40,389 nt of DNA from Vicinamibacteria bacterium (GTDB lineage: Bacteria > Acidobacteriota > Vicinamibacteria > Vicinamibacterales > UBA8438). The stretch lies in NCBI GenBank assembly GCA_022820675.1, contig JAJEFC010000441.1:1-40389 (forward strand), in the 5' to 3' direction. Position numbers and translations under genes: made by a program. Of the stretch, positions 2,649-27,333 are shown one piece after another. How positions within the stretch are numbered: position 1 is the first letter of the stretch; each line of letters starts with the position of its first letter. A model generated the notes under the pieces. That model ran no database searches. It was not told the DNA's origin and saw only the letters and a list, made by a program, of their open reading frames with translations.

Positions 2649-3590
2649 TCATCGGATGACCGGCGCACCCGCGTTCCAGTCGAGGATCACCAGGCTGGAC
2701 GGGCCGGCGTCGAAGGCCGCCAGGACGTCGGCGAGGACGGCCTCCGCGCCGCCCCGCGCGGCGTGGTCGAGAAACGCCGCGATGCCGGCGGCGTCGAGCG
2801 TCCCGGCCGGGTCGTCTCTCGATATCGGGATTGTGTTCCGGGCGCGCGCTCCGGTCCGGGTCAGGACGGCGACCTTGCCCGCGTCTTTTCGAATCGTGAC
2901 CCGCCCGTAGACGGCCCCGTGGAGCCGCTCCAGGGCGCGGTCGACGAGTCGGCGCCGTTCCGGCTCGTACTCGGGGGCGATGCGCAGCAGCTTCGTGCCC
3001 GCTTCCTGCTCGAGACGGTACGCGTTCGTCTTCCAGTGGTTCCCGACGCCGCGGATGGTCTCGGCATCAAGCATGTTGACGGCGCAGGCCAGCGCGTGGG
3101 GGTCCGCGTGGTGCGCCACCGCGACGTCGAACAGGTCTCTGGCCGGACTCTCCCGCTTCAGCGCCCGCTCCAGCTTGCCGCGCAGTATCTGGGCGGTGCT
3201 CTTCACCGCGACCTCGTGGTCGTCGATCAGGACCCGCCGGTGGCCGGACGCGGGGCGGCTGTCCAGCTCGGCGATGTCGACGACGCCTTCGTCGAAGACG
3301 ACGCGGTGGAGGGTCGCGCCCATCAGGACGTCCCGGGCGCCGAGGGCGTACATGTCGGCTTCCAGGGTGCCGCCGAAGCGCTTGTCGAGCTCGAGAATGC
3401 GGCTGCCCCCGGGCACCGTCAGATCGATGTCGGTACTCTCGCGGTGGGCCCACCGCTGAGCGAGGATCGTGCCGCCGCCGACGTGCCAGCGCGGCTGGGG
3501 CCTCCCCATCTGCGAGAGGGCCCGGTGGAGCACACCGCGCGTTCTGTGCCACAGCTTTCGCGCCGGCGACGGCAGGCTCAGCAGTTCCAC
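2649..3590 (-). CDS. AbiEii-type nucleotidyltransferase, module copy A (putative toxin)
   Basis: A 313-residue protein with the AbiEii/DUF1814-type nucleotidyltransferase signature: GGGTILAQRW (38-47), then HRESTDID (49-56), whose Asp54 and Asp56 would bind metal. A further Asp lies in the VVDIAELDS segment. Family members are toxins of type IV-like toxin-antitoxin or abortive-infection pairs that transfer nucleotides to tRNA or other targets; here the target is unknown. I place the start at GTG 3590, 13 nt inside the preceding gene, because the product then begins VELLSLPSPARKL, matching VEQLTLPEPAASL near the start of the paralogue at 25926-26900. The two proteins are alignable almost throughout, including a shared VTI-containing C-terminal segment. 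The overlap implies translational coupling to the gene at 3578-4123. Confidence 0.8.
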   Translation of the reverse strand: MELLSLPSPARKLWHRTRGVLHRALSQMGRPQPRWHVGGGTILAQRWAHRESTDIDLTVPGGSRILELDKRFGGTLEADMYALGARDVLMGATLHRVVFDEGVVDIAELDSRPASGHRRVLIDDHEVAVKSTAQILRGKLERALKRESPARDLFDVAVAHHADPHALACAVNMLDAETIRGVGNHWKTNAYRLEQEAGTKLLRIAPEYEPERRRLVDRALERLHGAVYGRVTIRKDAGKVAVLTRTGARARNTIPISRDDPAGTLDAAGIAAFLDHAARGGAEAVLADVLAAFDAGPSSLVILDWNAGAPVIR

Positions 3591-4123
3591 AGCGGTATCC
3601 CGTCGGCCTCGGGCGCCATCGCCATGTTGTTCAGCCAGCGGAAGCTCGTGAACGTGCGCAGCCCCTCCACCTTGTGGAAGGCGGCGACGAGTTGCCGGAT
3701 CGTGTAGACGTGCTCGCCCCAGGCGTCGAGGAGGTCGAGGCGGCTCGCCTCCTCGGCCCAGGTGCTGATGAGGCATCGTTGCCTCGCATCGACCTCGCCG
3801 CCGTGGATGGCGTCGTAGAACTCGCCGGCGCTGGGCCGGCGGGCCCAGCCGGCGCAACTGGTCGCGAGGCGCCGCGCGACCGCGATGCTGCGCGGCCCCA
3901 TTCGGTCCGGGTCGTGGTCCGTCCAGTGCGTGAAATACGATGCCGGCGCCGGCTCGTCCGGAAACGCCTCGGGCGGTCCGAGCAGGCACGGGCGCCGGTG
4001 CTCCAGCTCGGGGGGGAGCCGGCCGACCACCTCGTTCCAGTAGTCGAGCAGCCGCCGCCGGTCCGTCGGCGATCCGTGCAGGAGCGCCTCGATCTCGTGG
4101 TGTTCGAGCCGCCGGGATGCCAT
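3578..4123 (-). CDS. Helical partner protein of nucleotidyltransferase module A (putative antitoxin or adaptor)
   Basis: A 181-residue, mostly helical protein that I cannot assign to a named family. Its second half (SCAGWARRPSAGEFYDAI, RQRCLISTWAEEASRLDL, WGEHVYTIRQLVAAFHK) matches the partner at 25489-25929 (SCAGWREKPEPEEFYAAI, WAEGVYTWRQLAEAIHR). The N-terminal half differs, apart from weak similarity around RSIAVARRLA. In both loci the gene lies directly upstream of, and overlaps, an AbiEii-like nucleotidyltransferase gene, so an antitoxin or targeting role is inferred from position. It is not an AbiEi-type winged-helix protein as far as I can see. A TACGAT element ends 7 nt before the ATG with no ribosome-binding site, so the mRNA may be leaderless. 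Confidence 0.75.
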   Translation of the reverse strand: MASRRLEHHEIEALLHGSPTDRRRLLDYWNEVVGRLPPELEHRRPCLLGPPEAFPDEPAPASYFTHWTDHDPDRMGPRSIAVARRLATSCAGWARRPSAGEFYDAIHGGEVDARQRCLISTWAEEASRLDLLDAWGEHVYTIRQLVAAFHKVEGLRTFTSFRWLNNMAMAPEADGIPLWNC

Positions 4124-6393: not shown

Positions 6394-7113
6394 TCAGCAG
6401 CGTTGGGGGAGGAGTCTCACGCCTTCTCGTAGTCTGGACCAAACCTCGTCAGCGTCTACGCGGCGTATTACGCTGTCGCGTCTCATGCGACCCTTGATCT
6501 GGTTGACTGCGGCTCTTGTCGCGCTCGCCATCCATTTCTTCAGCGCCCTGCACTCGTGGACACTGATCAGGCCGGCGTGTTCGGTCACGATCCATCCTGC
6601 ATCGTAGATGTCCCTCGCCTTCCGGTGCGGTTTATCGCCAGCTACGGTCGCCAGTTTTCTGCGGATCAGTTCGTCGTCGGTGTAGATCAGAATCCCGTCG
6701 ACTCGTTCGCACCTGTCGAGCGGAACCCGCTCGGGCATGTTCGGTTTCGTACCGGTGCGCCGGTAATCCAGCCTCGTTGGGCCTGAACTCGCGAGCCCCG
6801 CTCGTGCAGGCCTGATCCGAACGGTTCCTCGCCAACCCCAGTTTACGCCCACTCTGTACTTGTTCGTCAACCCTGCTTGTTCGATGGCGTTTCGCACGCT
6901 CCTTCGCAGGTTGACTGGCCCGTCGCCCTCGAAGTCGAGGTCGGTAGACGGTCTCGGAAGTCCGATCTTCAGCCGTAGTGCGGTGCCGCCCTTCAGCGCG
7001 CAGGGGTTGTCCTGGCGGTCCATTTTCGCCTGGTATGCTCTGCCGATGCGCTTCAGGTCCTCATCTCGCGTCACTTCTTCAGGCGTGAACGGGATCTTCG
7101 GGTACGGCGGCAT
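6394..7113 (-). CDS. AbiEii/AbiGii-type nucleotidyltransferase, module C (putative toxin)
   Basis: A 239-residue protein with the core signature KGGTALRLKIGLPRPSTDLD (residues 41-60). The glycine pair and the Ser-Thr-Asp-Leu-Asp acid pair are intact. A conserved-looking C-terminal segment, RRKLATVAGDKPHRKARDIY, resembles the helical region (K...R.KDIyDl) of AbiEii-like proteins. Nucleotide transfer to an RNA or protein target is expected from the family. It is clearly distinct from the paralogues at 2649-3590 and 25926-26900: shorter, with a different motif spacing. The ATG shares its A with the TGA of the upstream gene (TGATG), so translation is probably coupled to that partner. Confidence 0.78.
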   Translation of the reverse strand: MPPYPKIPFTPEEVTRDEDLKRIGRAYQAKMDRQDNPCALKGGTALRLKIGLPRPSTDLDFEGDGPVNLRRSVRNAIEQAGLTNKYRVGVNWGWRGTVRIRPARAGLASSGPTRLDYRRTGTKPNMPERVPLDRCERVDGILIYTDDELIRRKLATVAGDKPHRKARDIYDAGWIVTEHAGLISVHECRALKKWMASATRAAVNQIKGRMRRDSVIRRVDADEVWSRLREGVRLLPQRC

Positions 7114-7661
7114 CACGCCCACGGGCGCCACTCCCGTCTCCACGTGTCCCATTTGCGGCGTTCGTCGCCTTGCAGTGCCCACCGCAGTTTCCACGCCCAC
7201 CAAGTCAGTCGTGTCCAGTGGAGCGTGCAGCACAGCCATTGAGTCAGTTCGAGGCTGTCGACCGGCTTCAGGTCCGGCACCTCTCCGTACAACTTGTCCG
7301 TTCTCAGTTGGGCCCATGCCGTCTCGATGACGGCCCGGTCGTACGCCGCCGTCCAGATTGGGCTCTCGCTTTCGCCTGCCGGGTGTCCGAGCACCCTCAG
7401 TCCCGCCCGAGCGTCCTGGACGCCGCTTCGGCCCAACTCGTCGAGCAGTACTCCGTATGTCTCTTCGTCGGTGAAGTCGTGCTCGTCCAGTTTTTCCGGC
7501 TCGGTTGCGAACCACGTTGCGTGGTTGTGCCAGTCTCCGCCCTCGTGTCTGGGGTCGGGGATGTTCAGGGCGGCCACTCCGGTGATGTGGCGCCGGGGGC
7601 TCGTCGGTCCGATCACTACGGGCGTGCTGTTTCCGTCCGCCGCGGCCAGGGTGTGGTTCAT
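7113..7661 (-). CDS. Unrecognised protein coupled to nucleotidyltransferase module C
   Basis: A 182-residue protein that I do not recognise. It is acidic and Trp-rich, with a segment GGDWHNHATWF near residue 47 and a basic, aromatic C-terminus (WTRLTWWAWKLRWAL, then WDTWRREW). No signal peptide or obvious DNA-binding motif is visible. The one-base stop/start overlap with the nucleotidyltransferase gene suggests an antitoxin or specificity partner. It has no visible similarity to the helical partners in the other two modules. ATG 7661 is chosen because the frame upstream reads as Arg/Pro-rich noise; only a weak GGAA lies upstream. Confidence 0.55.
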   Translation of the reverse strand: MNHTLAAADGNSTPVVIGPTSPRRHITGVAALNIPDPRHEGGDWHNHATWFATEPEKLDEHDFTDEETYGVLLDELGRSGVQDARAGLRVLGHPAGESESPIWTAAYDRAVIETAWAQLRTDKLYGEVPDLKPVDSLELTQWLCCTLHWTRLTWWAWKLRWALQGDERRKWDTWRREWRPWA

Positions 7662-8375
7662 CGCTGGTGGATTCCCGCGGTCGCGTGTCGGGCAGCCGCG
7701 ACTTGCGCTCTGCGGCCTGTTCCGGCCGTCTCTCCGTCGCGGCTGCGGCGACAACGCACGGGCTCCGGGCCGGGATTGTCCGACCCGAGCTTCGTCCCGC
7801 GACAAGGCGGCGACGGCAGGATGACCAACGATCTCGATCGTGCCACGTCCCTGGTTCCGGTGCAATCTCGGCGGGGTCGCGTCGGGCGGTGGGGCGGCCC
7901 CATCCCGTTGGTGCGCGGGCGCGGAGGGAAATCGGCGGCCGGGTCACGGCCAAGCGTTGGTGACCTGTCTCCGTGCTTCCTCGACGAGCACCAACCCTTC
8001 CGCGTGCCGTCGGGCCGCACTACCCGTCGTGGCGGTCGAGCCGCCCTCAGGCCAATCTGCCGCGAGCGCGAACACGTTGCGGCAGGGCACCTTGGGACTC
8101 GAAACCTGCTTGGTCGCGCTGCTCGACGCCGACTTCGAGATGGGCGTGCGCGGGAAGCGGGCTCGCCTTGTCGGCAACTGTCATATGGCGCCTGTGGACG
8201 AGCGACTCATCAGCGGGGCAGCGGCGGGGGCGATCGCCACGGGAACGGCGCGGGCGATTCACGCCAGCTTTGCCGGCGAGTATCGTGATTCGCCAGCGGC
8301 AGTAGAGTCCGGCCGGCGTGTTTCCGGCCCTGCAACCGGAACCGCTGCCTGCAAGCGGAATACGCCGGCTGGCCG
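7662..8375. other. Long intergenic stretch with no supported gene
   Basis: About 700 nt between divergently transcribed genes. Short frames here are Arg/Pro-rich and lack ribosome-binding sites. A minus-strand frame around 7944-8177 ends in a helix-like segment (ARRHAEGLVLVEEARRQV) and could be a remnant, but I cannot tie it to a family. No tRNA or clear repeat is seen. Confidence 0.4.
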
Positions 8376-11228: not shown

Positions 11229-11310
11229 GGCGTTGGAGAGTATGACGCTTCATCGTGCCAGTCGGCGATGTCGCCCCGACCCGCCCGTGTGCGGCGAACC
11301 AGCCCGGAGA

Positions 11311-11478
11311 GCGTCGCCTACGGCTCCGCTCACCGCCCAACCAAACCTGCCGGGAGTCTGCACCGTTCTACGGCGCAGACTCCCAGCCCGCCCATCGTCG
11401 CCTGAGGCTCCGCTGGGCGCCCAACCAACCCTCCAGGAGTCCAAGCCGTGCCAGGGCGCAGACTCCTGGGCCGGGCGG
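11311..11478. repeat. Two tandem copies of a stem-loop repeat (dispersed family)
   Basis: Two units of about 85 nt share GTCGCCT..GGCTCCGCT, then GCCCAACCAA, followed by an inverted repeat. In unit 1 the stem is GGGAGTCTGC/GCAGACTCCC (perfect 10 bp). In unit 2 it is CCAGGAGTC/GACTCCTGG (perfect 9 bp). A copy in the opposite orientation lies at 27187-27272, also upstream of a quinoprotein paralogue. The array sits in the divergent region between the antitoxin and the first quinoprotein gene. Confidence 0.7.
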
Positions 11479-11515
11479 CGGGGTGGGGCGGTTGCAGCGC
11501 GCACGATTGGCGGGC

Positions 11516-11544
11516 TGGCACTGCCGCCGTGTCGATGCTATAAC
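11516..11544 (+). promoter_or_regulatory. Promoter candidate of quinoprotein gene 1
   Basis: TGGCAC, 17 nt, TATAAC, then GGCGGAACGGGCGG. The arrangement and the GC-rich discriminator match TGGCGC-17-TATAAG-GGCGGCACGG upstream of quinoprotein gene 3 (26989-27017). That conservation between paralogues supports a real promoter about 60 nt before the start codon. Confidence 0.5.
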
Positions 11545-11605
11545 GGCGGAACGGGCGGCCGGGCGCCGTGGTGGCGCCGTCGGACGGCGCCGGGGAGTCG
11601 CGATC

Positions 11606-13816
11606 ATGTTCAGGGGAACTCGCGTCGGAGTCGGCGGGCGTATCGCCGGTCGGATGCAGCGGGAATGCCTCCACGGGCTCCCGAGAGCGAATCCCGTGGT
11701 TCGGGCAGTCGGGCTTGCCGCGGCTTGGCTGATCGCGATGGGCGGATCGGTGGGCGCACCGAACTTCGCCGGGGCGGCCCAGCTCCCGGCGTCGGACGGG
11801 GGGTTCACGGCCGAGCAGGCCGCGGCGGGGTGGACGGAGTACGTGCGGCAGTGCGGGGAGTGCCACGGCGAGGGGCTGGACGGGGCGGAGGCGCCGGCCC
11901 TGCGCGGGGTCGATTTCCTGAACGGCTGGGCGGGGCGGACCACGGACGAGCTGTTCGCGTACGTTCGGGACGAGATGCCGCCGGGCCTCGGGGGCTCGCT
12001 CGGCAACCGGGTCTACCTGGAGCTGGTCGCGTACATCCTCGACGCGAACGGGGCGCGGCCCGGCGACGCGCCGCTGACGGCCGAGACGGCGGTGCCGATT
12101 GGTGACGCCGCGGACATCGCCGAGGCGCGGCGGGCCGCGGACGCGGGCGAGGCGCCGCGGCGGCGGCCGACCCGGTTCGTCAACCGGGCAGTCGAGCAAC
12201 CCCTGACCCCGGTCACCGACGCCATGCTGCAGGACCCGCCGCCGGGCGACTGGCTGAGCTGGCGGCGGACCCGCGATGGCCACGGCTACAGCCCCCTCGA
12301 CCAGATCACGCGCGACAACGTCGACCAGTTGCGGCTGGCCTGGGTGCTCGCAATCCGCGAGGGCAACCACCAGACGGCGCCCCTCGTGCACGACGGGGTG
12401 ATGTTCCTGGCCAGCCCCGGCGACGTGGTGCAGGCCATAGACGCGGTCACCGGCGACGTCATCTGGCAGTACCGCTCGCCGCTGCCCGAGGACGCGCCCC
12501 AGCGGGCGCCCACCCGCACCCTGGCCCTCCATGGCGACCGCGTGTTCCTCGCCACCGCCGACGCGGCCCTCGTGGCCCTCGACGCGAGGACCGGCGAGGA
12601 GGTGTGGCGGACGGTGAAGGCCGACTACACGCAGGGCTTCCGCCAGAACGCCGGCCCCGTCATCGCCGACGGCGTCGTCGTCACCGGCACCAACGGCTGC
12701 CAGCGCTACAAGGCGCAGACCTGCTTCATCACCGGGCACGACCCCGACACCGGCCGCGAGCTGTGGCGCATGTCGACCATCGCCCTGCCCGGCGATCCCA
12801 ACGACGCCTCGTGGGGCGATACGCCGCCGTACCTCCGGGCGGGCGGCGACCAGTGGATTCCCGGCAGCTACGACCCCGAGCTCGGCCTCTACTACATCGG
12901 GACGGCGCAGGCGAAGCCGTGGGTGGCCGCGAGCCGCGGCATGACGACGCGGCAGGACGCGCTCTACACCAACTCGACGCTGGCCCTGCATCCGCGCACC
13001 GGGCAGGTGGAGTGGTACTTCCAGCACGCCCCGGGCGAGACCCTCGACCTCGACATCGTCTACGAGCGGGTGCTCGTCGACGCCGACGGCGAGAAGTGGC
13101 TGTTCACCATCGGCAAGGACGGCATCCTCTGGAAGCTCGACCGTCGAACCGGGGCGCTGGTCGACCTGCGCGAGACGGTCTACCAGGACGTCTTCGAGTC
13201 TATCGACCGGACCACCGGCGAGCTGACCTACCGGCCCGACATCCGCGACGCGGACGTCGGCGACCGGGTGCCCGCCTGCCCCAGCCTGCTCGGCGGGCAC
13301 AATTGGCAGGCTTCCGCGTATCACCCCGGCGCCGGCGCCCTCGTGATTCCCCTCCATCAGGCCTGCATGTACCTGACCGGCCGCGAGGTCGAGTTCGTCG
13401 AAGGAGGCGGCGGCGTGGCCGGCCGCTCCGAGTACCTCGAGATGCCGGGCTCGAACGGCAACGTGGGGAAGCTGGCCGCCTACGACGTGCGGACGATGGA
13501 CGAGCTGTGGAGCCGCGAGCAGCGGGCCGCGTTCCTGACGTCGACGCTGACCACGGCGGGGGGCCTCGTCTTCGCGGGCGACGCCGACCGCTACTACCGG
13601 GCGTTCGACATCGGGACGGGCGAGGTCCTGTGGGAGGCCCGCCTCGGGGCCAAGGCGCACGGCTACCCCATCACCTACGAGGCGGACGGCCGGCAGTTCA
13701 TCGCGGTGCCGGCGGCGCTGGGCGGCGCGTTCCGCAGCCTGACGGCGACCCTCACGCCGGAGATCTTCCAGCCGGAGGGGGGCAACGCGCTCTACGTCTT
13801 CGCGCTGCCGGAGTGA
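11606..13816 (+). CDS. Cytochrome c-PQQ beta-propeller dehydrogenase, paralogue 1
   Basis: A 736-residue exported quinohaemoprotein. After a long N-region and a signal segment, a cytochrome c domain carries C83-G-E-C-H87 with a Met in EMPPG as the likely distal ligand. The PQQ-type eight-bladed propeller starts near residue 214 with [20 protein letters not shown], the classic first-blade signature of quinoprotein dehydrogenases. [12 protein letters not shown] aligns with the region holding the catalytic Asp in PQQ alcohol dehydrogenases. The usual vicinal disulfide is not seen; instead [12 protein letters not shown] has two Cys nine residues apart. The haem domain is N-terminal, whereas classic quinohaemoprotein alcohol dehydrogenases carry it at the C-terminus. 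The substrate is unknown. Start 11606 is supported by GGGGAG 8 nt upstream, in a leader also found before paralogue 2. Confidence 0.85.
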
Positions 13817-13932: not shown

Positions 13933-14583
13933 TCATGCTCCACGCGCGGCCAAGCGTTCGACGAACCGGACCAGAGACGCGAAAGCCGGGTGGTCGAAGT
14001 TCCACCGACCTTGTTTCGCACCCTCTCCCACGCGCGCTACCGGATCGGGGCCGCCAGCGAGCCATGCGTGCGCGAACGACTTGTCGCGGTTCGTCGATGC
14101 CAGGACGTCGCTGTCCTCGAGGCAGGTGAGATACCGTTCGACGCAGTCGCCGGCCGGTGTCTCGGCCAGAGACCGGACGCACAGCGTCTCGAGAGCGCCT
14201 CGCCCTTGAGCGTCGGGGATGATCAAGATGCCGACGTCGGGAGGTCCATCCGAGAAGTCTCCATGACGGCCTGGGGCCTGAAGGCCCGCTTTGCCCACCG
14301 CGTCGTGGACGCTGGCCCAGGCAGCACCGCCATCAGTGTCAGCGTCTCGAACGACTCCCACGGCGCGCAGTGCGACCCCCCGTTTCGTCGCATCCTTGAG
14401 GATGGCAAGGATGCGCGATTGGAATTGGGTCCGTCCTCCCGCCTCGACGACCTGCACCGTCGGCGCCAGTTCGCCCAGGCAGTGACTCTTCAGGGCGTCG
14501 AAGAGGTTCGATTCGTCCCTGCCTTCCACCAGCAGGAGACGTTCGCACTCGACCCGAAATTGGTCGCGGCCGGACGGCGTCAT
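13933..14583 (-). CDS. DUF3226-like TOPRIM nuclease, partner of the OLD-like ATPase
   Basis: A 216-residue protein with a TOPRIM-like layout: LLLVEGRDE (the conserved Glu) near residue 17, VVRDADTDG (the DxD motif) near residue 77, and GILIIPDAQGRGALETLC, which resembles the conserved tail of the DUF3226 family. In OLD-family and PARIS-type systems a TOPRIM domain acts as a metal-dependent nuclease controlled by an ABC-like ATPase. Here the two are separate genes with a 4-nt ATGA overlap, so they should be made together and form a complex. A role in phage defence is inferred from family and context. Confidence 0.75.
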   Translation of the reverse strand: MTPSGRDQFRVECERLLLVEGRDESNLFDALKSHCLGELAPTVQVVEAGGRTQFQSRILAILKDATKRGVALRAVGVVRDADTDGGAAWASVHDAVGKAGLQAPGRHGDFSDGPPDVGILIIPDAQGRGALETLCVRSLAETPAGDCVERYLTCLEDSDVLASTNRDKSFAHAWLAGGPDPVARVGEGAKQGRWNFDHPAFASLVRFVERLAARGA

Positions 14584-15662
14584 CGCAGATCCAGGTTGAT
14601 GTCGCGGGCGGCCTCGAGGGTCTCACCGCAATAGGTCACGGCGCGCACCTTGTCGCCATGACGGGAGAGAGCATGGACCGCAAGTTGGTCGTCCTCGTCC
14701 ATGAAGGTGTCGAGCGCAGCGTCGATACACTCTCGACTGTGGGTCGTCGCGAAGATCTGAACGTCGAATTCGCCGGTCATTGCCTGCACCTGGCGCCACA
14801 ACTTCGGCAGGACGAGGTGGTGCAAACCGTTCTCGATCTCGTCGATCACGACGAGCCCGCCCTTGTAGCGGTGAAAAGCAACGAAGAGGCGAAACAGGCG
14901 GGTCATGCCGCCGCCCAGGGATTGCAGCGGTAGCCTTTCGTCTTCCGTGGTCGTTGCGAGGATGAACGGCTTGCCGCTGTGATCCGTGATGACTTCCACG
15001 TCGATGAGGAGTGGCAGGAGAAGGCGGAGCGTGCTCTTGACGTAGTCCTTGCGCCCCTGGGCGACCAGCGCCGAGAAGTGGTTGATGGTCTCCTCGTCCA
15101 TGTCCATGGAGAACCAGGGCAGTTGAATGACCGCGGGCCGGTGATTGGCGGGCCGATCGATAGTTGGCAAGATGAAGACGCCCTCGCCCGGCACCTCGGC
15201 CAAGATGCCGTGCTCGCCGCCCGCTTCACTACCATTGAGCCAGACCCTGAGCCGTCCTTGGGGCGGAACGGGCCACGTTGTCCCTGTCGCCGCCGCCGGC
15301 TTCGCAGACGGGGCGATCCGTTCGTCGGAGTCTACGGTTCCTGCGCCACCCACGGTCGGCATTCGTTCGAACGTCGCCCTCCATCGCTGCACCTCGCCGT
15401 GTTCCGTGCCGGCGAGTTCGAGCGCGCCATCGCGAACCAGACGGGCGACCGGGTCGACTACGCTGCGCACCGACCGCTGGACGTGGGCGTTCCACGGCAA
15501 TATGGGCGTGAAACGGCCGTTGAACAACCAGATCGCTTCGGCGAGCGAGGTCTTGCCTGCCCCGTTCGGCCCGGTGATGAGGTTCACCCCGGCGAGGCGC
15601 TCCAGATGAACCCCGTCGATTCCCCGATAATGGACCGCGCGAAACGATTCAAGATGACTCAT
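14580..15662 (-). CDS. OLD/ABC-like AAA ATPase of a two-gene defence pair
   Basis: A 360-residue SMC/ABC-like ATPase. It has Walker A GPNGAGKTS near residue 31, a signature-like LGGGMTRL, Walker B GGLVVIDEIENGLHH and a switch histidine in FATTHSREC. There is no long coiled coil, as in AAA_15/AAA_21 ATPases of OLD-type systems. It would bind ATP, oligomerise and hold or activate the TOPRIM protein encoded by the overlapping downstream gene. ATG 15662 is preferred to an upstream TTG (15689) because MSHLESFRAVHYRGID is the usual family beginning; neither has a clear ribosome-binding site. The nearest named relatives by architecture are the PARIS AriA/AriB pair and split OLD nucleases. Confidence 0.8.
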   Translation of the reverse strand: MSHLESFRAVHYRGIDGVHLERLAGVNLITGPNGAGKTSLAEAIWLFNGRFTPILPWNAHVQRSVRSVVDPVARLVRDGALELAGTEHGEVQRWRATFERMPTVGGAGTVDSDERIAPSAKPAAATGTTWPVPPQGRLRVWLNGSEAGGEHGILAEVPGEGVFILPTIDRPANHRPAVIQLPWFSMDMDEETINHFSALVAQGRKDYVKSTLRLLLPLLIDVEVITDHSGKPFILATTTEDERLPLQSLGGGMTRLFRLFVAFHRYKGGLVVIDEIENGLHHLVLPKLWRQVQAMTGEFDVQIFATTHSRECIDAALDTFMDEDDQLAVHALSRHGDKVRAVTYCGETLEAARDINLDLR

Positions 15663-16111
15663 GGACAGCGACGCGGGATTATATTTCAAGTGGCGCCCCG
15701 CCGCGTCGGATGAACGGGTAGACAGCCGTCAAGGCTCACGTGCCAGGAGCTCGAGCGGGCCGTTAGCCGTCACTTCACCGCCGCCGTGAGCCATGGGGGG
15801 GCGGAGCGCGAACTGGTCGGGGCATCGCGGGTCGGCTTCGAGCGCTCGTTGTTCCGGCTACAATGGGGGGGTGACGAGGGAGGCGCAACAGGGCTGTAAG
15901 ACTGTAAGTCATTTTTTATGAGTCGTTTGCGAGGATCATGCGACGTCGGCCCTGTCGGGGTGACGCGGCGCGCGGCCACAGCGTCTTGATTGCTCGGCTC
16001 ATGTGATGCCCGCCGCCGCGTGACGTCGGCGGAGTCGCCGGCGCGAGGGCGGGCGCTGACGATCGCGCGGCATGCAGGTGCCGGCGGACGGTGCCCGGGG
16101 AGTTGTGAATC
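15663..16111. other. Divergent intergenic region with no gene
   Basis: About 450 nt between the ATPase gene (minus) and quinoprotein gene 2 (plus). It contains a promoter candidate at 15837-15864 and an unusually AT-rich patch near 15905-15920 (CATTTTTTATGAG). No reading frame is convincing, and the hairpin repeats found upstream of paralogues 1 and 3 are not evident here. Confidence 0.4.
15837..15864 (+). promoter_or_regulatory. Possible promoter upstream of quinoprotein gene 2
   Basis: TTCGAG, 16 nt, TACAAT. It lies about 250 nt before the start codon, much further than in paralogues 1 and 3, and could serve a long leader. Tentative. Confidence 0.3.
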
Positions 16112-18280
16112 ATGCCGAGAGAAGCTCGCGTCGAGAGCGGCGGTTCGCGTTGGCTGGCGGCAGCGGTGGTCCGCGTTGGGGCGGCCGGATTGATCGCGCT
16201 GGCCGGCTCGGCCGGCGGACCGGGCGTCGTCGCCGTCGCGGCGCAGCCGCAGGCGGCGGACGGGGGCTTCACGGCCGACCAGTCCGCGGCGGGGTGGGCG
16301 GTGTATGGCCGGCAGTGCGGCGAGTGCCACGGGCAGGGGCTGTTCGGAGCGGAGGCGCCGGCCCTGCGCGGGGTCGACTTCTTGAACGGCTGGGCCGGGC
16401 AGACGACGGACGAGCTGTTCGCGTACCTGCGCGACGAGATGCCCCCCGGCCTCGGCGGCTCGCTCGCCGACGGGGTCTACCTGGGCCTCGTCGCCTACAT
16501 CCTCGACATGAACGGCGCCCGCCCCGGCGACGCGCCGCTGACGGCCGACGCGGCGATCACCATCGGTGACGCCGCAGACATCGCCGAGGCGGAGCGGGCG
16601 GCGCGCGAGGGCGACCGGCCGCGGCGGCGGTCGACGCGGTTCGTCAACCGGGAGGTGCCGCACGACCTGGCCCCGGTCACGGACGCGCTCCTCGCCGACC
16701 CGCCGCCGGGTGACTGGCTGAGCTGGCGGCGGACCCGCGACGGCCACGGCTACAGCCCCCTCGACCAGGTGACGCGCGACAACGTCGACGAGCTGCAGCT
16801 CGCCTGGGTGCTCGCCATCCGCGAGGGCAACCACCAGACCACGCCGCTGGTGCACGACGTGGTGATGTTCCTCGCCAATCCCGGGAACGTCGTCCAGGCG
16901 ATAGACGCGGTCACCGGCGAGGTCATCTGGCAGTACCGGTCGCCGCTGCCCGAGGACGCGGTGCGGTGGGGCGCCACCCGCACCCTCGCCCTCTACGGCG
17001 ACAAGCTCTTCCTCGCCACCTACGACGCCGCCCTCGTCGCCCTCGACGCGGCGACCGGGGCCGAGGTGTGGCGCACCGTGAAGGCGGACCACACGCAGGG
17101 GTTCATGCAGTTCGGCGGCCCCGTCGTCGCGAACGGCGTCGTGGTGACCGGCATCAACGGGTGCGAGCGCTACAAGGAGCAGACCTGCTTCATCACCGGG
17201 CACGACCCCGACACCGGCCGCGAGCTGTGGCGCACGTCGACCATCGCGCTCCCCGGCGACCCCAACGACGCCTCGTGGGGCGACACGCCGCCGTACCTGC
17301 GAGCCGGCGGCGACCTGTGGATTCCCGGCAGCTACGACGCCGAGCTCGGCCTCTTCTACATCGGCACCGCGCAGGCGAAGCCGTGGGTGGCGGCGAGCCG
17401 CGGCATGACGACGCGGCAGGACGCGCTCTACACCAACTCGACGCTGGCCCTGAACCCGCGGACGGGGCAGGTGGAGTGGTACTTCCAGCACGCCCCGGGC
17501 GAGACCCTCGACCTCGACATCGTCTACGAGCGGGTGCTCGTGGACGCCGACGGCGAGCAGTGGCTCTTCACCATCGGCAAGGACGGCATCCTCTGGAAGC
17601 TCGACCGGCGGACGGGCGCGTTCGTCGACCTGCGCGAGACTGTGTACCAGGACGTCTTCGCGTCGATCGACCGGACCACGGGGCGGCTGGAGTACCGGCA
17701 GGACATCCACGACGCGGACGTCGGCGACCGGGTGCCCGCCTGCCCCAGCCTGCTCGGCGGGCACAACTGGCAGGCGTCGGCCTACCACCCCGGCGCCGGC
17801 GCCCTCGTGATTCCCCTCCACCAGGCCTGCATGTTCCTGACCGGCCGCGAGGTGGAGTTCGTCGACGGCGGCGGGGGAGAGGCGGGCCGGTCGGAGTTCA
17901 TCGAGATGCCCGGCTCGAACGGCAACGTGGGCAAGCTGGCCGCCTACGACGTGCGGACGATGGACGAGCTGTGGAGCCACGAGCAGCGGGCCGCGTTCCT
18001 GACGTCGACGCTGACGACGGCGGGCGGGCTGGTCTTCGCGGGCGACGCCGACCGTTACTACCGGGCGTTCGACATCGAGACCGGCGAGGTCCTCTGGGAG
18101 ACCCGCCTCGGGGCCAAGGCCCACGGCTATCCCATCACCTACGAGGCGGGCGGGCGCCAGTTCATCGCGGTCCCGGCGGCGCTGGGGGGCGCGTTCCGCA
18201 GCCTCACCGCGGCCCTCACGCCGGAGATCTTCCAGCCGGAGGGGGGCAACGCGCTCTACGTCTTCGCGCTGCCGGAGTGA
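16112..18280 (+). CDS. Cytochrome c-PQQ beta-propeller dehydrogenase, paralogue 2
   Basis: A 722-residue paralogue of the protein at 11606-13816, alignable end to end. It has a signal segment ([15 protein letters not shown]), haem motif C69-G-E-C-H73 with EMPPG, the first-blade signature [20 protein letters not shown], the Cys pair in [12 protein letters not shown] and the DLD segment at the expected catalytic Asp. It should oxidise an alcohol- or aldehyde-type substrate in the periplasm and pass electrons to its own haem. One visible difference is QFGG where the others have QNAG in the TQGF.. blade segment, which could alter the substrate pocket. The start is set by GGGGAGTTGTGAATC before ATG. 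A TolB-like gene follows 155 nt later on the same strand. Confidence 0.86.
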
Positions 18281-20721: not shown

Positions 20722-20844
20722 CCCGCGCGGTGCGCCAGGACGGGAGCGGTCGCCGGAAGGGCGGCGCCTCGTACCCTGAAGAACACCCACCGCACGTCAG
20801 GTGGTCCGGTCCACTTGGGCCGGGCCCATTGCGGAGAGTCTCTG

Positions 20845-23385
20845 ATGCGCGAGATCGAAATCGGAGACGCCTTCATCGGCGTCGTGGCCCAGGCTCCGTT
20901 CGAGTCGCGGTCGTTCTCCGGCGTGCAGAACGCGTTCTGCACGCTTCAACCACTTGCGTTCGAGGACGGGCAACGCACCACGCCGGGGGACTTCCCGAAC
21001 CGCGGTCTCGTCTGGTGGATGCTCACCGACAACGCCCATCGCTTCGCCCAACCCGGGCGCTTGGTGTCGTTCATCGTGGAACGGGCGCCGGAACACACGG
21101 CGGACGACCCCGAGAAACACCTGTGGCAGGCCAAGCGGACCAGCGTAAAGCCGTGCACGAACGAGATGGTGGAGATCCTGCACATTTCGCCCCGGGACGT
21201 CCAGCAGCAAAACGACCTCGTCAGCACAGGATCGTGCGCCGCGGATCACCTGCCGTGCGCCACCGCTCTCGTGCGCTGGCGCGACCATCTCTACGGTCCT
21301 TTGCCCACGAGTCCCGAAGGGCCCGACGACGCCGGCGATTTCGTCGTCCGCTTTGCCCCACCGCGGCCGGGTCGTCAGGTGTTCCGTCTTCAGGCGGCTG
21401 AACTCGACCGGGTGCGCGACGCCGGGGAGCGCGTCTTCGAAGTTGAGGTCTCTCGTGATTCCTCGATGCGGAATCGCAGAGAGCACGCCGTCGTTTGCAG
21501 TTACGAGCTGATTCCTGCGGCTGTTTATCGAGAGCTCACGCGCACGGCGGAACGCGTGCGTCTCGAGAGCGACTCGGCGATGCTGCGCCGTGTCGCCAAG
21601 GATGTCCTCGGGTGGTCGCGGAAAGAACGCTCCAGCCTGAACCAACTGCTTGAGAGATTCGAAGAGGAGTTGAAACACCCACGAGATGATGCCGACACGG
21701 AGTCCGCGATCGGTGTGCTTCAACGGACGCAAGCCCGGCTCGAACACAACGGACAACTTGCCGCCGAGATCGCCGAGGCGTTGATCGGCTCGGGTTTCGT
21801 CGACCAGGCGCTGGAAGACGGGATCGAGGAGCGCTACAGGCAGTACGTCGAATCCAGAACCGCAAAGACCACGGCCGACATCGCGGAGCGTGTGGCCTCG
21901 TTACGGCAGGAGCTCGACACCTTGATCGAGCGGCGCAACGCGCTTGATGCCGAGGTCGAATCGGAATCACGAACGAAGCGAGCGAGCCTTGAGCGTGAAC
22001 TCGACGAACAGCGGGCCGCGCACGATACGAAGATGGCCGGGCAACGCGCCGAGCTCGAAGCAGAAAGGAAGAACCTACGCCAACGGCAGCAAGAGATCGA
22101 GCGGCGCCTGGACGCGGCAACGAGGCGGTTCGTCGACGCCCGCGACGACGTGCTCAAGGACCTGCTGACACTCGCACCGCTGCTGAATGCCGTCGAGTTC
22201 CAGAAGGACCGCTCCCGCACCGCTGACACTGCCGAGGCTCCGCCGTCGGCATCTCACGAACCACGGAACTTCAAGCTGCGTCCGTATCTGGAGCACTCCC
22301 TGGCGGACCGGGAGATCACCGAGACCGATTTCTTCGACCGGTTCGAGAGGCACGTACGGAACTCAGGCTACGTGTACAGGCGCCTGGACCTCGTTGCGTT
22401 TCACGTCAGCGTCAAGGTCTCGGACCTGACGGTCCTGGGAGGCGTATCTGGAACCGGCAAGTCCAGCCTTCCGCGCCTTTACGCGCAGGCGCTCGCCGGG
22501 GACGTAGGCGCCTGGGACGATCGCTATCGGACGGTGGGCGTGAACCCGTCCTGGCTGGACGTCGGTGACTTGCTCGGACGGGTGAACGTCCTCGACGCGC
22601 GCTTCCTGCCGTCCGACTCGGGGCTCTACGACCTGCTGATCCATGCCCACGGGGAGTACCAACGTCAGACTCGCAACTCCGGGCTGTACGTCGTCTGCCT
22701 CGACGAAATGAACCTCGCGCAGGTCGAGCACTACTTCAGCCCGTTTCTCCAGCTCCTGGAGGCCCCCCTGGATCAACGCCGCCTGCGCTGTTTCGCGCCC
22801 GCGTCGGTGTCGCCCGACAGCGACTTCGCCAAGTGGGCGGAACTCGATCTCCCGCCGTCGCTGCGATTCATCGGCACGGTGAACTTCGACGAGACGACGC
22901 GGCCCCTGAGTCGACGGGTGCTCGACCGGATCAATCTGATCACGCTGCATCCGGTCCCTCTGAGCGAACTGGACGCGGGCGGGGATCAACTGCCGGCACC
23001 TCCGGTGTCAGGACCGCCGGTGACGCACGGCCGATTCGAGAGCTGGAGAAGACCAGGCGAAGCGGGCTCGGTTGCGGAGGTGCTGGACGAATTGCGGGAA
23101 CCGCTCGGCCGGCTGGGCTGCCCGCTCAGCCCGCGCCGCTACCGAGGGGTGTGCGAGTTCCTGGCCAGCGCACGGGAGCTCATCACACCCGAGGAGGCGC
23201 TCGACATGCAGATCACCCAGCGGCTGCTGCCACAAGTCCGTGGCCTCTTTCGGCAGTCTGCTCGGGACGCCCTGGAGGACCTCCGCGCCTTGCTGGACGC
23301 GCACGGAAAGCGGTACAGCAACGCCCTCCACGCGCTCGATGAACTGTGCGAGGCGGACGATCCGTGGGCGCAGGAACCGGAATGA
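20845..23385 (+). CDS. McrB-like AAA+ NTPase with N-terminal domain and long coiled coil
   Basis: An 846-residue protein. Residues 1 to about 220 form an N-terminal domain I do not recognise (contains GLVWWMLTDNAHRF). Residues about 323-445 are a charged coiled coil rich in Glu, Arg and Leu heptads. Near residue 532 comes a Walker A motif, GGVSGTGKSS. It is followed by the McrB/MoxR-like Walker B segment VVCLDEMNLAQVEHYF, and by GTVNFDETTRPLSRRVLDR, where McrB GTPases have a MNTADRS-type motif. McrB-family NTPases translocate and drive a partner nuclease on modified DNA, or act on RNA in CoCoNuT-type systems. The next gene, a PD-(D/E)XK nuclease, overlaps it by 4 nt. The start is set by GGAGAG 6 nt upstream. 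ATP or GTP preference cannot be read from sequence. Confidence 0.8.
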   Translation: MREIEIGDAFIGVVAQAPFESRSFSGVQNAFCTLQPLAFEDGQRTTPGDFPNRGLVWWMLTDNAHRFAQPGRLVSFIVERAPEHTADDPEKHLWQAKRTSVKPCTNEMVEILHISPRDVQQQNDLVSTGSCAADHLPCATALVRWRDHLYGPLPTSPEGPDDAGDFVVRFAPPRPGRQVFRLQAAELDRVRDAGERVFEVEVSRDSSMRNRREHAVVCSYELIPAAVYRELTRTAERVRLESDSAMLRRVAKDVLGWSRKERSSLNQLLERFEEELKHPRDDADTESAIGVLQRTQARLEHNGQLAAEIAEALIGSGFVDQALEDGIEERYRQYVESRTAKTTADIAERVASLRQELDTLIERRNALDAEVESESRTKRASLERELDEQRAAHDTKMAGQRAELEAERKNLRQRQQEIERRLDAATRRFVDARDDVLKDLLTLAPLLNAVEFQKDRSRTADTAEAPPSASHEPRNFKLRPYLEHSLADREITETDFFDRFERHVRNSGYVYRRLDLVAFHVSVKVSDLTVLGGVSGTGKSSLPRLYAQALAGDVGAWDDRYRTVGVNPSWLDVGDLLGRVNVLDARFLPSDSGLYDLLIHAHGEYQRQTRNSGLYVVCLDEMNLAQVEHYFSPFLQLLEAPLDQRRLRCFAPASVSPDSDFAKWAELDLPPSLRFIGTVNFDETTRPLSRRVLDRINLITLHPVPLSELDAGGDQLPAPPVSGPPVTHGRFESWRRPGEAGSVAEVLDELREPLGRLGCPLSPRRYRGVCEFLASARELITPEEALDMQITQRLLPQVRGLFRQSARDALEDLRALLDAHGKRYSNALHALDELCEADDPWAQEPE

Positions 23386-25193
23386 ACAGCCCTGATTCTC
23401 TCCGCGGGGCGCACTTCGCGCTCACGCAGAATGGCAATGAGATAGCCTCCGTCGCTCTGGCGGACGAGGGCGCCTCTCCAGCCGACCAACCGGTGACGGT
23501 CAGCGAGCTCCAGCCGGTCGGATTTTCGCTGACGTCCAGAAGGCAGGACGTCGAGTACACGGTGGCAATCGGTGACATCCCGCTGCCGCCAGGCCGTGCA
23601 TTCGGACCCATCATATACTGGGAAGACGGACGCCACTTCGAAAGCGCCCGGGGCCGGGTTGGCGTCCGTCTTCGTGCCCGCACCGCCCCGGATGCCGGCT
23701 GGCGGGTGTGCGCACGACTCGACGTCAACGTAGTGCCCACCAAACTGGGAGAGAAGCGCTACGAGACGCTCGTGAACGACATTCGGGTGATCGCCGCGGG
23801 GCTTATCTTCGACATTGTCTCGAAGATGTTCCGTGGCGTGCGCTACGCGCGAGGCATTACCCAGGTCGCGTCGCATACGAGCCACCTCGAGCTGGCCAAC
23901 CTCCGGCGTCAGTGGAAGGGGATTTCGCGCGCGCTGGAGCTCATCACCACTGAACCGCAACTGCGCACGGGACGTTGCATCGAGCTCCGCTCCTTCAGCG
24001 GGGCCGAAGTTCTCAGTTCGAACACCGCGGTTCGTCTTGCGGCTCGAGGATTCGACCCCCGGGGTCCCGATCGGGGCCGGCCAGTCACGGTTCCAGCGGA
24101 GAGGCTCACGCGGAGCGGCGACATTGTCGAGCACCGCGTCATTCTATGGTTCCTGAAACTCCTCCTTCAGCGGGTCCGGGAATGCACCAAGGCGGCGCGG
24201 GCGGAGATCGCACTCATCGAGTCGGAGCGGGAACTGCGGGATGTAGCCATGGGTTCAGGACCGACGCTGTACGAAGAAGTGGACCTGCCGAAGATCGAGC
24301 GGCTTCGGGAGTCCGTCGCTCAGGCCCACGAACTGGCCACGCAACTTCGACGTGCCATGCTATCGCCTTTGTTCAGGCATCTCCGGCCGCAGGCCGACCC
24401 GACCGACACGCCAGTGTTCCAACACGTCGATGCGTACCACCGCTTCGGGCGGAGGATGCGGCACTACCTCACCGCTTCGCTCGTGGTCCTCGAGGCGGGA
24501 GAGCGGGAGCGGCTCAAGGCGACCAGCCGACTCTACGAACACTGGGTGTTTCTGCGGCTGGCGGAGGCGTTTCGAGGCTGTGGACTCTGCGGAGACGATG
24601 TGGAGGGCGTTGTCCGGCGCCGGGGGCGACATCGATTCGTGCTGGATCTTGACGATGATGTGGTCCTCCAACTTCGCCTCGACGCCGGCCGCTTCGTCCG
24701 CCTTCGGTACGAACCGTGGATCTTGCCCGTAGAGGCGGCGCGCCGGCGCGGAGATACGTTGTGCCGGGGGGCAGGTGACTCGGCTCCCGCGTGGAGGCCC
24801 GACGTACTGGTGGAGTTCATCGACGGTGGCGAGGTGGCCTATGCCGTCGTCGTTGACAGCAAGTACTCGGCGCGGATCCAGGACCATCACTGGTTACGCG
24901 TGGAGAAGTACACGCAGATCCGGACCGTGGTCGGACTGCGCCAAGTCGTGCGTCAGGTTTGGTTGGCGCATCCCGGAGAAAACGCTGGGATCCACTGTCG
25001 CGACACGACCGTGACCTGGACCACCTACGGCCCCGACCGACCGCGTGATGAGATCGTTCTGGGGGATCTCGGACTCCGTCCTGTGTTCGACGAGGCCGCA
25101 AGGGCAGAGGCATACGACGGGGACGAGCCATCAACCGTCGTGCGGGAGTTCGCCGCGGGCCTGCTGCACTACGTCGGTTTCTTGACGAACTGA
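23382..25193 (+). CDS. DUF2357-PD-(D/E)XK nuclease, McrC-like
   Basis: A 603-residue protein that I read as an N-terminal DUF2357-type region (about residues 90-270, including PTKLGEKRYETLVNDI) and helical middle region joined to a C-terminal nuclease. The nuclease motif is WRPDVLVEF (Asp near residue 472), then VVVDSKYS (Asp-x-Lys near 492) and a trailing EKYTQIRTVV helix. This is the PD-(D/E)XK pattern seen in McrC and related effector nucleases. The ATGA overlap with the McrB-like gene implies coupled translation and complex formation. Together they form a type IV restriction-like defence pair. What is recognised is unknown; neither protein shows a familiar base-reader (PUA, SRA or EVE) domain. 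Confidence 0.8.
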   Translation: MNSPDSLRGAHFALTQNGNEIASVALADEGASPADQPVTVSELQPVGFSLTSRRQDVEYTVAIGDIPLPPGRAFGPIIYWEDGRHFESARGRVGVRLRARTAPDAGWRVCARLDVNVVPTKLGEKRYETLVNDIRVIAAGLIFDIVSKMFRGVRYARGITQVASHTSHLELANLRRQWKGISRALELITTEPQLRTGRCIELRSFSGAEVLSSNTAVRLAARGFDPRGPDRGRPVTVPAERLTRSGDIVEHRVILWFLKLLLQRVRECTKAARAEIALIESERELRDVAMGSGPTLYEEVDLPKIERLRESVAQAHELATQLRRAMLSPLFRHLRPQADPTDTPVFQHVDAYHRFGRRMRHYLTASLVVLEAGERERLKATSRLYEHWVFLRLAEAFRGCGLCGDDVEGVVRRRGRHRFVLDLDDDVVLQLRLDAGRFVRLRYEPWILPVEAARRRGDTLCRGAGDSAPAWRPDVLVEFIDGGEVAYAVVVDSKYSARIQDHHWLRVEKYTQIRTVVGLRQVVRQVWLAHPGENAGIHCRDTTVTWTTYGPDRPRDEIVLGDLGLRPVFDEAARAEAYDGDEPSTVVREFAAGLLHYVGFLTN

Positions 25194-25488
25194 CGAGCGA
25201 GACGCGTTCCAGGCGAGCGGCGGCGGAGAGGTGATTCCGATGCCGGAGCGTACTGTCGCTCACGCGGCGGGATGTACGGCGGCCGCGTGACCGCCGGACG
25301 GAATCCCGGCGAGCGACGCCGCGCCGCCCGGTCAGCTCGCCGTTTCCTGCGCGACGTCGGGGGCCCGGATGATCGAGTCGCGATGATCCGGGAGCGACCG
25401 GTTGCGAGGAAGCGCGTACGCGGTACGTGCCGCGAAACGGACCAGGAGTCCGTCAGAGAAGGGGAACGGGTCTACACTGGAAGGAAAC

Positions 25489-25929
25489 ATGGCAGGCAGA
25501 AAGCAAACGGCGGCGCAGCCGCGGACTACGGCCGGACCGTGGCGCGCGCCGGTAACGCTGGCGCCGTCGGACGCCTTCGACGATCGGGAAGCGGACGAGG
25601 TCTTCCGAACGCAGTTCCACCCGGGACACGATCCGGCGCAGCTCGGGCCGCAGAGCCGGGCGGTCCGCAACCGGTTGCGTGCAAGCTGCGCCGGATGGCG
25701 CGAGAAGCCGGAGCCCGAAGAGTTCTACGCGGCGATTCGGGCCAAGGCCCCGTCGCGCCGGCAGCGGCGCCTTCTCGCATGCTGGCTTCAGGAAGCCACG
25801 CGCGAGGACTTCCTCTACGCCTGGGCCGAGGGCGTCTATACGTGGCGACAACTGGCTGAGGCGATCCACAGGGCCGGGGAGCAGACGCGGCCGCGTTGCG
25901 CTGACATCAACACGTTGGCGGCGCCATGA
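25489..25929 (+). CDS. Helical partner protein of nucleotidyltransferase module B
   Basis: A 146-residue protein, paralogous in its C-terminal two-thirds to the gene at 3578-4123: SRAVRNRLRASCAGW, EEFYAAIRAKAPSRRQRRLL and WAEGVYTWRQLAEAIHR. The N-terminal 50 residues are basic and differ from the other copy, so the conserved part is probably the piece that contacts the nucleotidyltransferase. The ATG has GGAAGGA just upstream. Its TGA overlaps the ATG of the nucleotidyltransferase gene by 4 nt. The 295 nt before it, after the DUF2357 gene, hold no gene that I can support. The antitoxin role is inferred from position only. Confidence 0.75.
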   Translation: MAGRKQTAAQPRTTAGPWRAPVTLAPSDAFDDREADEVFRTQFHPGHDPAQLGPQSRAVRNRLRASCAGWREKPEPEEFYAAIRAKAPSRRQRRLLACWLQEATREDFLYAWAEGVYTWRQLAEAIHRAGEQTRPRCADINTLAAP

Positions 25930-26900
25930 GCGGACAGGACGATCACGACGTCGAGCAGCTGACGCTGCCGGAGCCGGCCGCGAGCCTGTTCCGGCGAACG
26001 CGCGAGGCCCTCGAGACGCATGTCGGCCGGCACACGCCCAACGGGGAGGGCATCAGACTGACCGGCGGGACAGTGCTCGCGGCGCGGTGGGGGCACCGCC
26101 GTAGCGACGACATCGACATCACCTACGACCCGGAAACCGAGACGGCGCACTTCGATGCAACGCTTCGGCCGGCCCTGGAAGCGGTCGGCGGTCGGTCCCT
26201 GGCCTGGGGCGAATGGAGTCGGGTCGAGTTCGGCGACAACCACATCGACTTGCTGAAGGCCGAGCCGCAACCGGCGATCGGGCAGGGCCGGGCCCTGATC
26301 GACGGCAGTCCGGTCACCGTGCTGACCAGCACGCAGATCATCAACGCGAAGCTCCACAACCGCTCGCTCGATCCGCCGGTGCGGGACGTCTACGACATCG
26401 CGGTATGCGGCATCGAGGACCCGGGAGGCCTGGAGAGAAGCGCCAACGGCGTGTACGCCGCAACGATGGACGCCACCATCCTCGTCTGGAAGATGCACCA
26501 GGCCGAGCACGCCGACAGGGCTCGGGAGGAGCTGCACGAAGTGCCCGAGCGGCTCGAGCCAGTCCGCCGCGACCCGGCGCTGTACGCGATCCACGCGGCG
26601 GAGCAGGCGCTGTACAGGCGGGTGACGATCACCTGCAACCGCGGAACCGTACTGGTGCGGACGACGAGCGGATGGGGGAAACGGGAGACCGCGTTCGAGA
26701 CCGAGGGACAGTTGGGCGACGGTTTGGAGGCGAGCGGGATGAACCTGTTCCTCCGAGCGCACGGACACAGCGGCACGCGAACGCGGGAACGAGCGGTCCG
26801 GGCAATGAACGACCGGGGACGGCGGGTCATCCTCGACGTCGAGCCGTCGCGGCCGCCGCAACGCGCCGAACCGATTGTGGAGGTGCCACCGGCCGGTTAG
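25926..26900 (+). CDS. AbiEii-type nucleotidyltransferase, module copy B (putative toxin)
   Basis: A 324-residue paralogue of the protein at 2649-3590. The signature is TGGTVLAARWGHRRSDDID (residues 46-64), with Asp62 and Asp64 as the metal-binding pair and a third Asp candidate in NHIDLLKAE. The helical region TSTQIINAKLHNRSLDPPVR and the following VRDVYDIAV match the AbiEii layout and the sister copy. It probably transfers nucleotides to a cellular target when released from its partner. The C-terminal 60 residues (from about ASGMNLFLRAHGHSGTRTRE) are less conserved than the core. Both copies are intact, so the module seems to be maintained rather than decaying. Confidence 0.82.
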   Translation: MSGQDDHDVEQLTLPEPAASLFRRTREALETHVGRHTPNGEGIRLTGGTVLAARWGHRRSDDIDITYDPETETAHFDATLRPALEAVGGRSLAWGEWSRVEFGDNHIDLLKAEPQPAIGQGRALIDGSPVTVLTSTQIINAKLHNRSLDPPVRDVYDIAVCGIEDPGGLERSANGVYAATMDATILVWKMHQAEHADRAREELHEVPERLEPVRRDPALYAIHAAEQALYRRVTITCNRGTVLVRTTSGWGKRETAFETEGQLGDGLEASGMNLFLRAHGHSGTRTRERAVRAMNDRGRRVILDVEPSRPPQRAEPIVEVPPAG

Positions 26901-27310: not shown

Positions 27311-27333
27311 TTTCTGGGTCAGGAGTGCGGACC

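Follow-up and report, generated by a model that had tools for sequence, protein, structure and literature searches.

The window analysed here is the whole of a 40,389-nt stretch of DNA (positions 1 to 40,389 of contig JAJEFC010000441.1, assembly GCA_022820675.1) from a Vicinamibacteria bacterium of the Acidobacteriota. Two copies of a two-gene module, A and B, lie in the window on opposite strands (Table 1). In both copies the gene of a protein called the partner below stands 5' and the gene of a nucleotidyltransferase (NTase) stands 3'. On the minus strand of copy A, the stop codon of the partner gene occupies positions 3578-3580 and the GTG start codon of the NTase gene positions 3588-3590, giving the 13-nt overlap. 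The first-pass annotation of this DNA had described such an overlapping module, GGT and S-x-D-I-D motifs in its enzyme, and a second copy with the same gene order and a matching partner core. When re-read, the coordinates, order and overlap proved correct, both motifs were found in the sequence, and the second copy was located at 25489-26900 on the plus strand. The two partners are 45% identical over query residues 43-174 (E 3.9e-25), and the two NTases are 34% identical (E 1.2e-31). At the level of sequence, a chance resemblance of copies A and B is excluded. Together with a canonical AbiEi/AbiEii pair, the 40-kb window contains three AbiEii-type NTases in total.

Table 1. Genes and other features of the window discussed in the text.
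Feature	Position	Strand	Remarks
Copy A partner gene	3578..4123	-	181 aa; candidate antitoxin, outside known families; helical AlphaFold2 model
Copy A NTase gene	2649..3590	-	GTG start; 313 aa; MenT/AbiEii-type by Pfam, model and fold match
Copy A overlap, partner stop / NTase start	3578..3590	-	13 nt, read from sequence
Copy B partner gene	25489..25929	+	ATG start chosen; TTG at 25402 likewise open
Copy B NTase gene	25926..26900	+	324 aa; Pfam AbiEii, E 4.5e-6
Copy B gene overlap	25926..25929	+	4 nt
Canonical AbiEi/AbiEii pair	about 6394-7865	-	AbiEii 1.1e-14, AbiEi 3.1e-15; about 2.3 kb from copy A
PDC-M26A/LmuB-like gene and DUF2357 gene	20815-25193	+	Candidate defence pair; missing at the matching site of genome G001
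AAA ATPase resembling PDC-M38A/AbiLi	14583-15689	-	
Three PQQ-dependent dehydrogenase-like genes	11255-13816, 16112-18280, 27325-29502	+	

The enzyme and its partner

Both NTases match the Pfam family PF08843 (AbiEii; cut-off 22.5), with 31.0 bits (E 3.1e-7) for copy A and 27.2 bits for copy B. Their PADLOC matches are weak (E 0.0047 and 0.037), and NCBIfam returned none for either. Residues G39, H49, R50, D54, D56, Q134, K139, R142, R151 and D155 are invariant in 57 NTases, G40 and D152 are kept in 56 of the 57, and position 52 is a serine in 55 and a threonine in two. These positions include the catalytic set G-G, R-x-S/T-x-D-x-D, K and R-D-x-x-D of the AbiEii/MenT (DUF1814) NTases. The AlphaFold2 model of the copy A enzyme has a mean pLDDT of 93.9. 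Foldseek matches this model to 8an5_B (E 5.0e-5), and the best VIA match is TglT/MenT3 (Z 12.0, 212 residues, rmsd 4.3), followed by MenT4 (11.7), H. pylori 4ok0 (11.6), MenT1 (11.1) and JHP933 (11.0). The non-toxin ANT(2'')-Ia reaches a Z of 10.4. The identity to the MenT structures is 10-19%, and these listed structural matches span mainly residues 3-230, with the C-terminal part to about residue 306 barely covered.

The NTase fold (Z 9.9-12.0 for the MenT entries) and the R-x-S/T-x-D-x-D motif, lysine and acidic residues are shared with the MenAT systems (MenT1, MenT3/TglT, MenT4), whereas the extra C-terminal region of the present enzyme is not. In two papers on MenT1, residues R37, T39, D41, D43, K137 and D152 are given as conserved or active-site residues, and T39 is phosphorylated in the presence of MenA1 (PMC11375011, PMC10435456). 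Motif spacing and the published residue numbers would place S52 at the position of T39. By its Pfam match, catalytic residues and predicted fold, the enzyme is of the MenT/AbiEii type; its toxicity is a prediction.

The AlphaFold2 model of the copy A partner (mean pLDDT 89.2) consists of helices only, with no strands of three or more residues. In an alignment of 86 partners, residues C90, G92, W93, P97, E101, A105, R114, E125, A134, R143, L145, A148 and N165 are each present in at least 90% of the sequences. Partners A and B match nothing in Pfam or PADLOC even at an E value of 10, and in NCBIfam they match only two unrelated oxidoreductase models (E 0.017 and 0.099). A Pfam search with the 86 partners returned no AbiEi at E 0.1, and 16 families with at most three members each (best E 0.0039). 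The best E value of a PDB sequence search with the partner is 0.23; Foldseek gave no match to its model at E 0.001 in the PDB or among viral models, and VIA gave no Z above 2.9 against 140 chains. No recognised antitoxin or DNA-binding domain was found in the libraries searched. None of the titles and abstracts listed from the open-licence literature on AbiEii/MenT, on toxin-antitoxin (TA) systems of sponge symbionts, on orphan antitoxins and on novel NTase antitoxins describes the partner. The earlier claim that the partner is no recognisable AbiEi is thereby borne out: it is not AbiEi, and it is without a recognised relative in the libraries searched. A missing structural match is no proof of a new fold.

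The partner also bears on how the module compares with the systems that it otherwise resembles. AbiE likewise consists of two genes with the partner first and a short overlap, which is 4 nt in S. agalactiae abiE (PMC3985639), and the NTase here matches Pfam AbiEii. In contrast to AbiE, whose AbiEi antitoxin carries an N-terminal winged helix, the present partner has no AbiEi match, its helical model has no winged-helix strands, and the window's own canonical AbiEi is dissimilar to it. As regards MenAT, the partner matches no MenA in the PDB sequence and Foldseek searches used here. The MenA antitoxins are themselves described as diverse and mutually unrelated (PMC10435456, PMC11375011).

In AbiE the antitoxin binds inverted repeats in its own promoter. 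Five inverted repeats of 8-14 nt occur upstream of copies A and B, none of them common to both; one of 12 nt, at 92%, lies upstream of copy B. A TANNNT promoter motif, found near an in-frame start in 29 of 84 upstream regions, was unconvincing.

Distribution, coupling and asymmetric loss

The genome to which the window belongs (6.55 Mb, 441 contigs) has 23 partner and 23 NTase matches, fragments among them, and a search of the window and 20 retrieved stretches with iterated profiles yields 23 frames of each gene. Copies A and B are two of its about 23 partner copies. Downstream of the 22 intact partners of this genome, the NTase is full in 16 cases, broken in five and absent in one. The richest genomes have about twenty paralogous copies, unlike MenAT. 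The partner profile matches 13 of 100 genomes, namely 12 of 28 from the same Vicinamibacterales family and, marginally, one of the 72 others of the order. Of 60 genomes, the NTase profile matches 15. Twelve of these are the positive genomes just mentioned, out of 28 in the family, and three, out of 32 others, have short weak matches. Neither gene occurs in the other 16 genomes of the family. A positive genome has from 1 to 24 matches, and one of them (G020) has fragments only, of both genes. A sample of 396 genomes from the phylum returned only the genome itself and one marginal match, which is a weak negative because few candidates were scored per genome and 9 of the genome's own copies were recovered. 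Of the 22 loci that a scan of genome contigs with a single short peptide pattern turned up, 21 lie in bins that carry the name Vicinamibacteria, Vicinamibacterales or Acidobacteria, and these bins we take, from the style of their names, to be sponge-derived. No relatives of the module were found in viral contigs, and none on plasmids, where the copy A partner alone was the query. Judged by its sequences, this is a genuine and conserved unit, limited to one lineage within the searches made.

A whole or partial NTase lies directly downstream of 79 of the 87 intact partners. The suggestion that partner and enzyme form a conserved unit thus stands, and a survey of neighbourhoods did not find partners occurring mostly without an NTase (8 of 87 have none). 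Nor did the partner prove, in the libraries searched, to be a known AbiEi or MNT-HEPN antitoxin. In the 57 pairs measured with script-chosen starts, among which L042 (fused) and L047 (reversed) are not counted, the partner always comes first; the genes overlap in 50 pairs, by 4 nt in 26 and by 13 nt in 10. Distances between partners correlate with those between NTases (r 0.83, against 0.15 for the largest of 2000 permutations; r 0.54 among deeply diverged pairs), which linkage alone could explain. Locus L042, a single frame across both genes, was discarded as proof of interaction. Its G001 counterpart L095 consists of two genes, so the fusion is recent or the product of an indel. In L047 the gene order is reversed and the partner is shortened.

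Loss of the two genes is unequal. The NTase following the 87 intact partners is full in 58, broken or cut in 21 and absent in eight. For three of the 29 without a full NTase the contig ends after 488, 770 and 770 bases; with these excluded, the NTase is lost or broken downstream of 26 of the 84 intact partners that have room downstream. An intact partner stands directly upstream of 58 of the 59 full NTases, in the same frame in L042, and the last of the 59, L047, has its shortened partner downstream. Thirteen loci with cut partners (L047, L098, L100, L136, L139, L143, L148, L155, L161, L168, L169, L176 and L177) were left out of the partner count, and a full NTase is present only in L047 among them; L106, which is probably misbinned (see below), is included in the 87 partners, 59 NTases and 57 pairs. 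One of the 27 single losses is on the partner side (p 7.5e-4 given the gene lengths), the losses being not all independent.

Because the loci were mostly found via the partner, NTase matches elsewhere were examined, apart from seven places where the match is short, covering no more than about 135 of the 309 positions of the profile. Nine further stretches hold no full NTase of the copy A/B family without a partner-like region. L185 has an NTase without its N-terminus and no partner, L187, L188 and L189 have partial NTases, and L190 to L193, from other families, have short weak matches only. In L186 a region weakly resembling the partner (domain E 0.0086) precedes the NTase in frame; Pfam finds nothing there at E 1e-4, and the case is at most suggestive. 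A repetitive open frame beside the truncated NTase of L185 (2532-3425) looks like a translated CRISPR array.

When L144 is compared with L150, and L092 with copy B, the matching sites of L144 and L092 each prove to lack, as a clean deletion, about 1 kb with the NTase. The loss in L049 and L082 is probably older than their split, since the segment after the lost NTase is common to both. Such NTase-biased loss is the pattern expected of a toxin and its antitoxin, and it hints at harm from the enzyme and protection by the partner. The first-pass annotation had proposed an antitoxin or defence role; the antitoxin part of this proposal gains support from the loss pattern.

The same pattern bears on a reversal of the roles, in which the helical partner would be a toxic RNase resembling HEPN proteins, and the NTase would act as its antitoxin by adenylylating it, as in MNT-HEPN. 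These systems also combine an NTase with a helical partner, the partner model here is helical, and an R-X4-6-H spacing anchored at R143 is present in 59 of 86 partners. The motif is, however, absent in 27 of 86 and so not conserved, and the partner has no PDB match in Foldseek at the threshold given above. The MNT of MNT-HEPN is a minimal NTase, smaller than the enzyme of about 310 aa found here, which is of the large AbiEii type. Moreover, the partner outlives the NTase far oftener than the reverse, whereas a toxic partner left alone should kill. Reversed roles are for these reasons highly improbable.

Pairwise dN/dS is 0.07-0.36 for both genes, with the following exceptions. The partners of L050/L085 give 0.49; L037/L094 differ by 1 change in the partner (dN/dS 0) and 3 in the NTase (0.73); and L041/L096 have no changes at all. 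For the orphan partners of L049/L082 the dN/dS is 0.26: 19 changes alter an amino acid and 21 are silent, a departure from neutrality with p 7.7e-5. The partners of L144 and L150 also deviate from neutrality (p 2.0e-5), in a comparison that may include time before the NTase was lost, as do those of L040 and L087, whose NTases are both broken (p 0.043, 11 changes). Fifteen partner rows stem from loci that have lost the NTase or carry a broken one, except that the NTase of L036:9187 is full; five of the rows differ at one each of the 14 most conserved residues, which are otherwise retained. By these substitution patterns the orphan partners are under purifying selection, which fits an independent function of the partner too.

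A housekeeping or regulatory pair would likewise account for the purifying selection seen in the two genes and in orphan partners. Such a pair might consist of a non-toxic NTase with a cofactor, or the partner might have a regulatory role of its own; ANT(2'')-Ia, too, is close to the NTase in fold. The closest folds, however, are toxins, and the 1 to 24 matches per genome, the absence from 16 of 28 family genomes and the frequent decay of the NTase all speak against such a pair, which we regard as unlikely.

Genomic surroundings

The surroundings of the module were compared among genomes. The G001 stretch L092 matches all three PQQ-dependent dehydrogenase-like genes of the window (83-97%). Blocks of 1.4-1.8 kb that are alike without similar flanks raised the possibility of a mobile cassette with fixed ends, which was rejected, as the ends vary relative to the genes. 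The seeming block pairs L046/L093 and L124/L150 are syntenic with gaps. One flank of L038 is present in G001 without the module, the opposite side being unmatched, and the right flank of L090 has short matches only in G000 and G002. The module L039 adjoins one end of an island of about 12 kb in the window's own genome (stretch L232, 7640-19613), which the matching place in G002 lacks.

Transfer across phyla was considered for L106, which lies in a Candidatus Palauibacter poriticola bin and is 92.4% identical in DNA over 1503 bp to a G001 copy, and was not upheld. Its left flank is matched over up to 2.1 kb (74-92%) by genomes of the Vicinamibacterales family, whereas 12 relatives of Candidatus Palauibacter poriticola match it in short, weak stretches only; in the other 59 genomes searched around that bin, the matches to its right flank are all short and low-scoring. 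L106 (1-10093) is probably a misbinned Vicinamibacterales contig, the alternative being a shared mobile region.

Some neighbours point towards defence. The PDC-M26A and DUF2357 genes adjoin copy B, some proteins flanking other copies match BREX and other defence models, and one module borders a variable island. The module might accordingly be a phage-defence or stress system, in which the partner would sense a trigger or activate the enzyme instead of simply acting as an antitoxin. At E 1e-10, PADLOC assigns the 88 flank proteins of 20 loci to 25 families, BREX models included, versus 59 families for 82 control proteins of the same genome; the lists are not de-duplicated, and many of the 25 control families listed among the 59 are one AAA family. 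L034, L045 and L047 have neighbours that match defence models, none with BREX. The flanks show no excess of defence families over the controls, which matched more of them, and the defence part of the earlier proposal is not established; as families are not proteins, these counts neither show nor exclude enrichment. An activator would be unlikely to persist after the loss of its effector, and a defence role of this kind is distinctly unlikely.

Proposed function

By combining these observations, it is possible to propose how the module might work. It is probably a two-gene TA module, in which the candidate toxin is the MenT/AbiEii-type NTase and the candidate antitoxin is a member of a new, unrelated family. 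We infer toxicity, its target, neutralisation and its mechanism, and any anti-addiction value of the orphan partners from the evidence above and from known systems. The NTase would add nucleotides to the 3' ends of tRNA, and translation would stop. The helical partner, encoded upstream, would be translated first and coupled to the enzyme through the gene overlap. By analogy with MenAT, it would neutralise the NTase most likely through direct binding. The partner perhaps shifts the active-site serine S52 towards the bound nucleotide, causing the toxin to phosphorylate itself. Neutralisation by self-phosphorylation has been proposed for the antitoxins MenA1 and MenA3, which are unrelated.

A further step is more speculative. 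Partners kept after the loss of their toxin may act in trans as anti-addiction antitoxins against related copies within a network of many divergent copies, with a new fold and an internal arms race; this extension is doubtful at present. If it were true, one bacterial family would host an internal arms race, in which a multiplying toxin module is set against stranded antidotes.

The known antitoxins of MenT/AbiEii toxins are unrelated to one another in structure, and a candidate family without a recognised fold would now join them. With the module it could be tested whether neutralisation generally works through induced self-phosphorylation. Its many paralogues and the repeated natural loss of the enzyme make TA specificity, cross-talk and anti-addiction directly testable.
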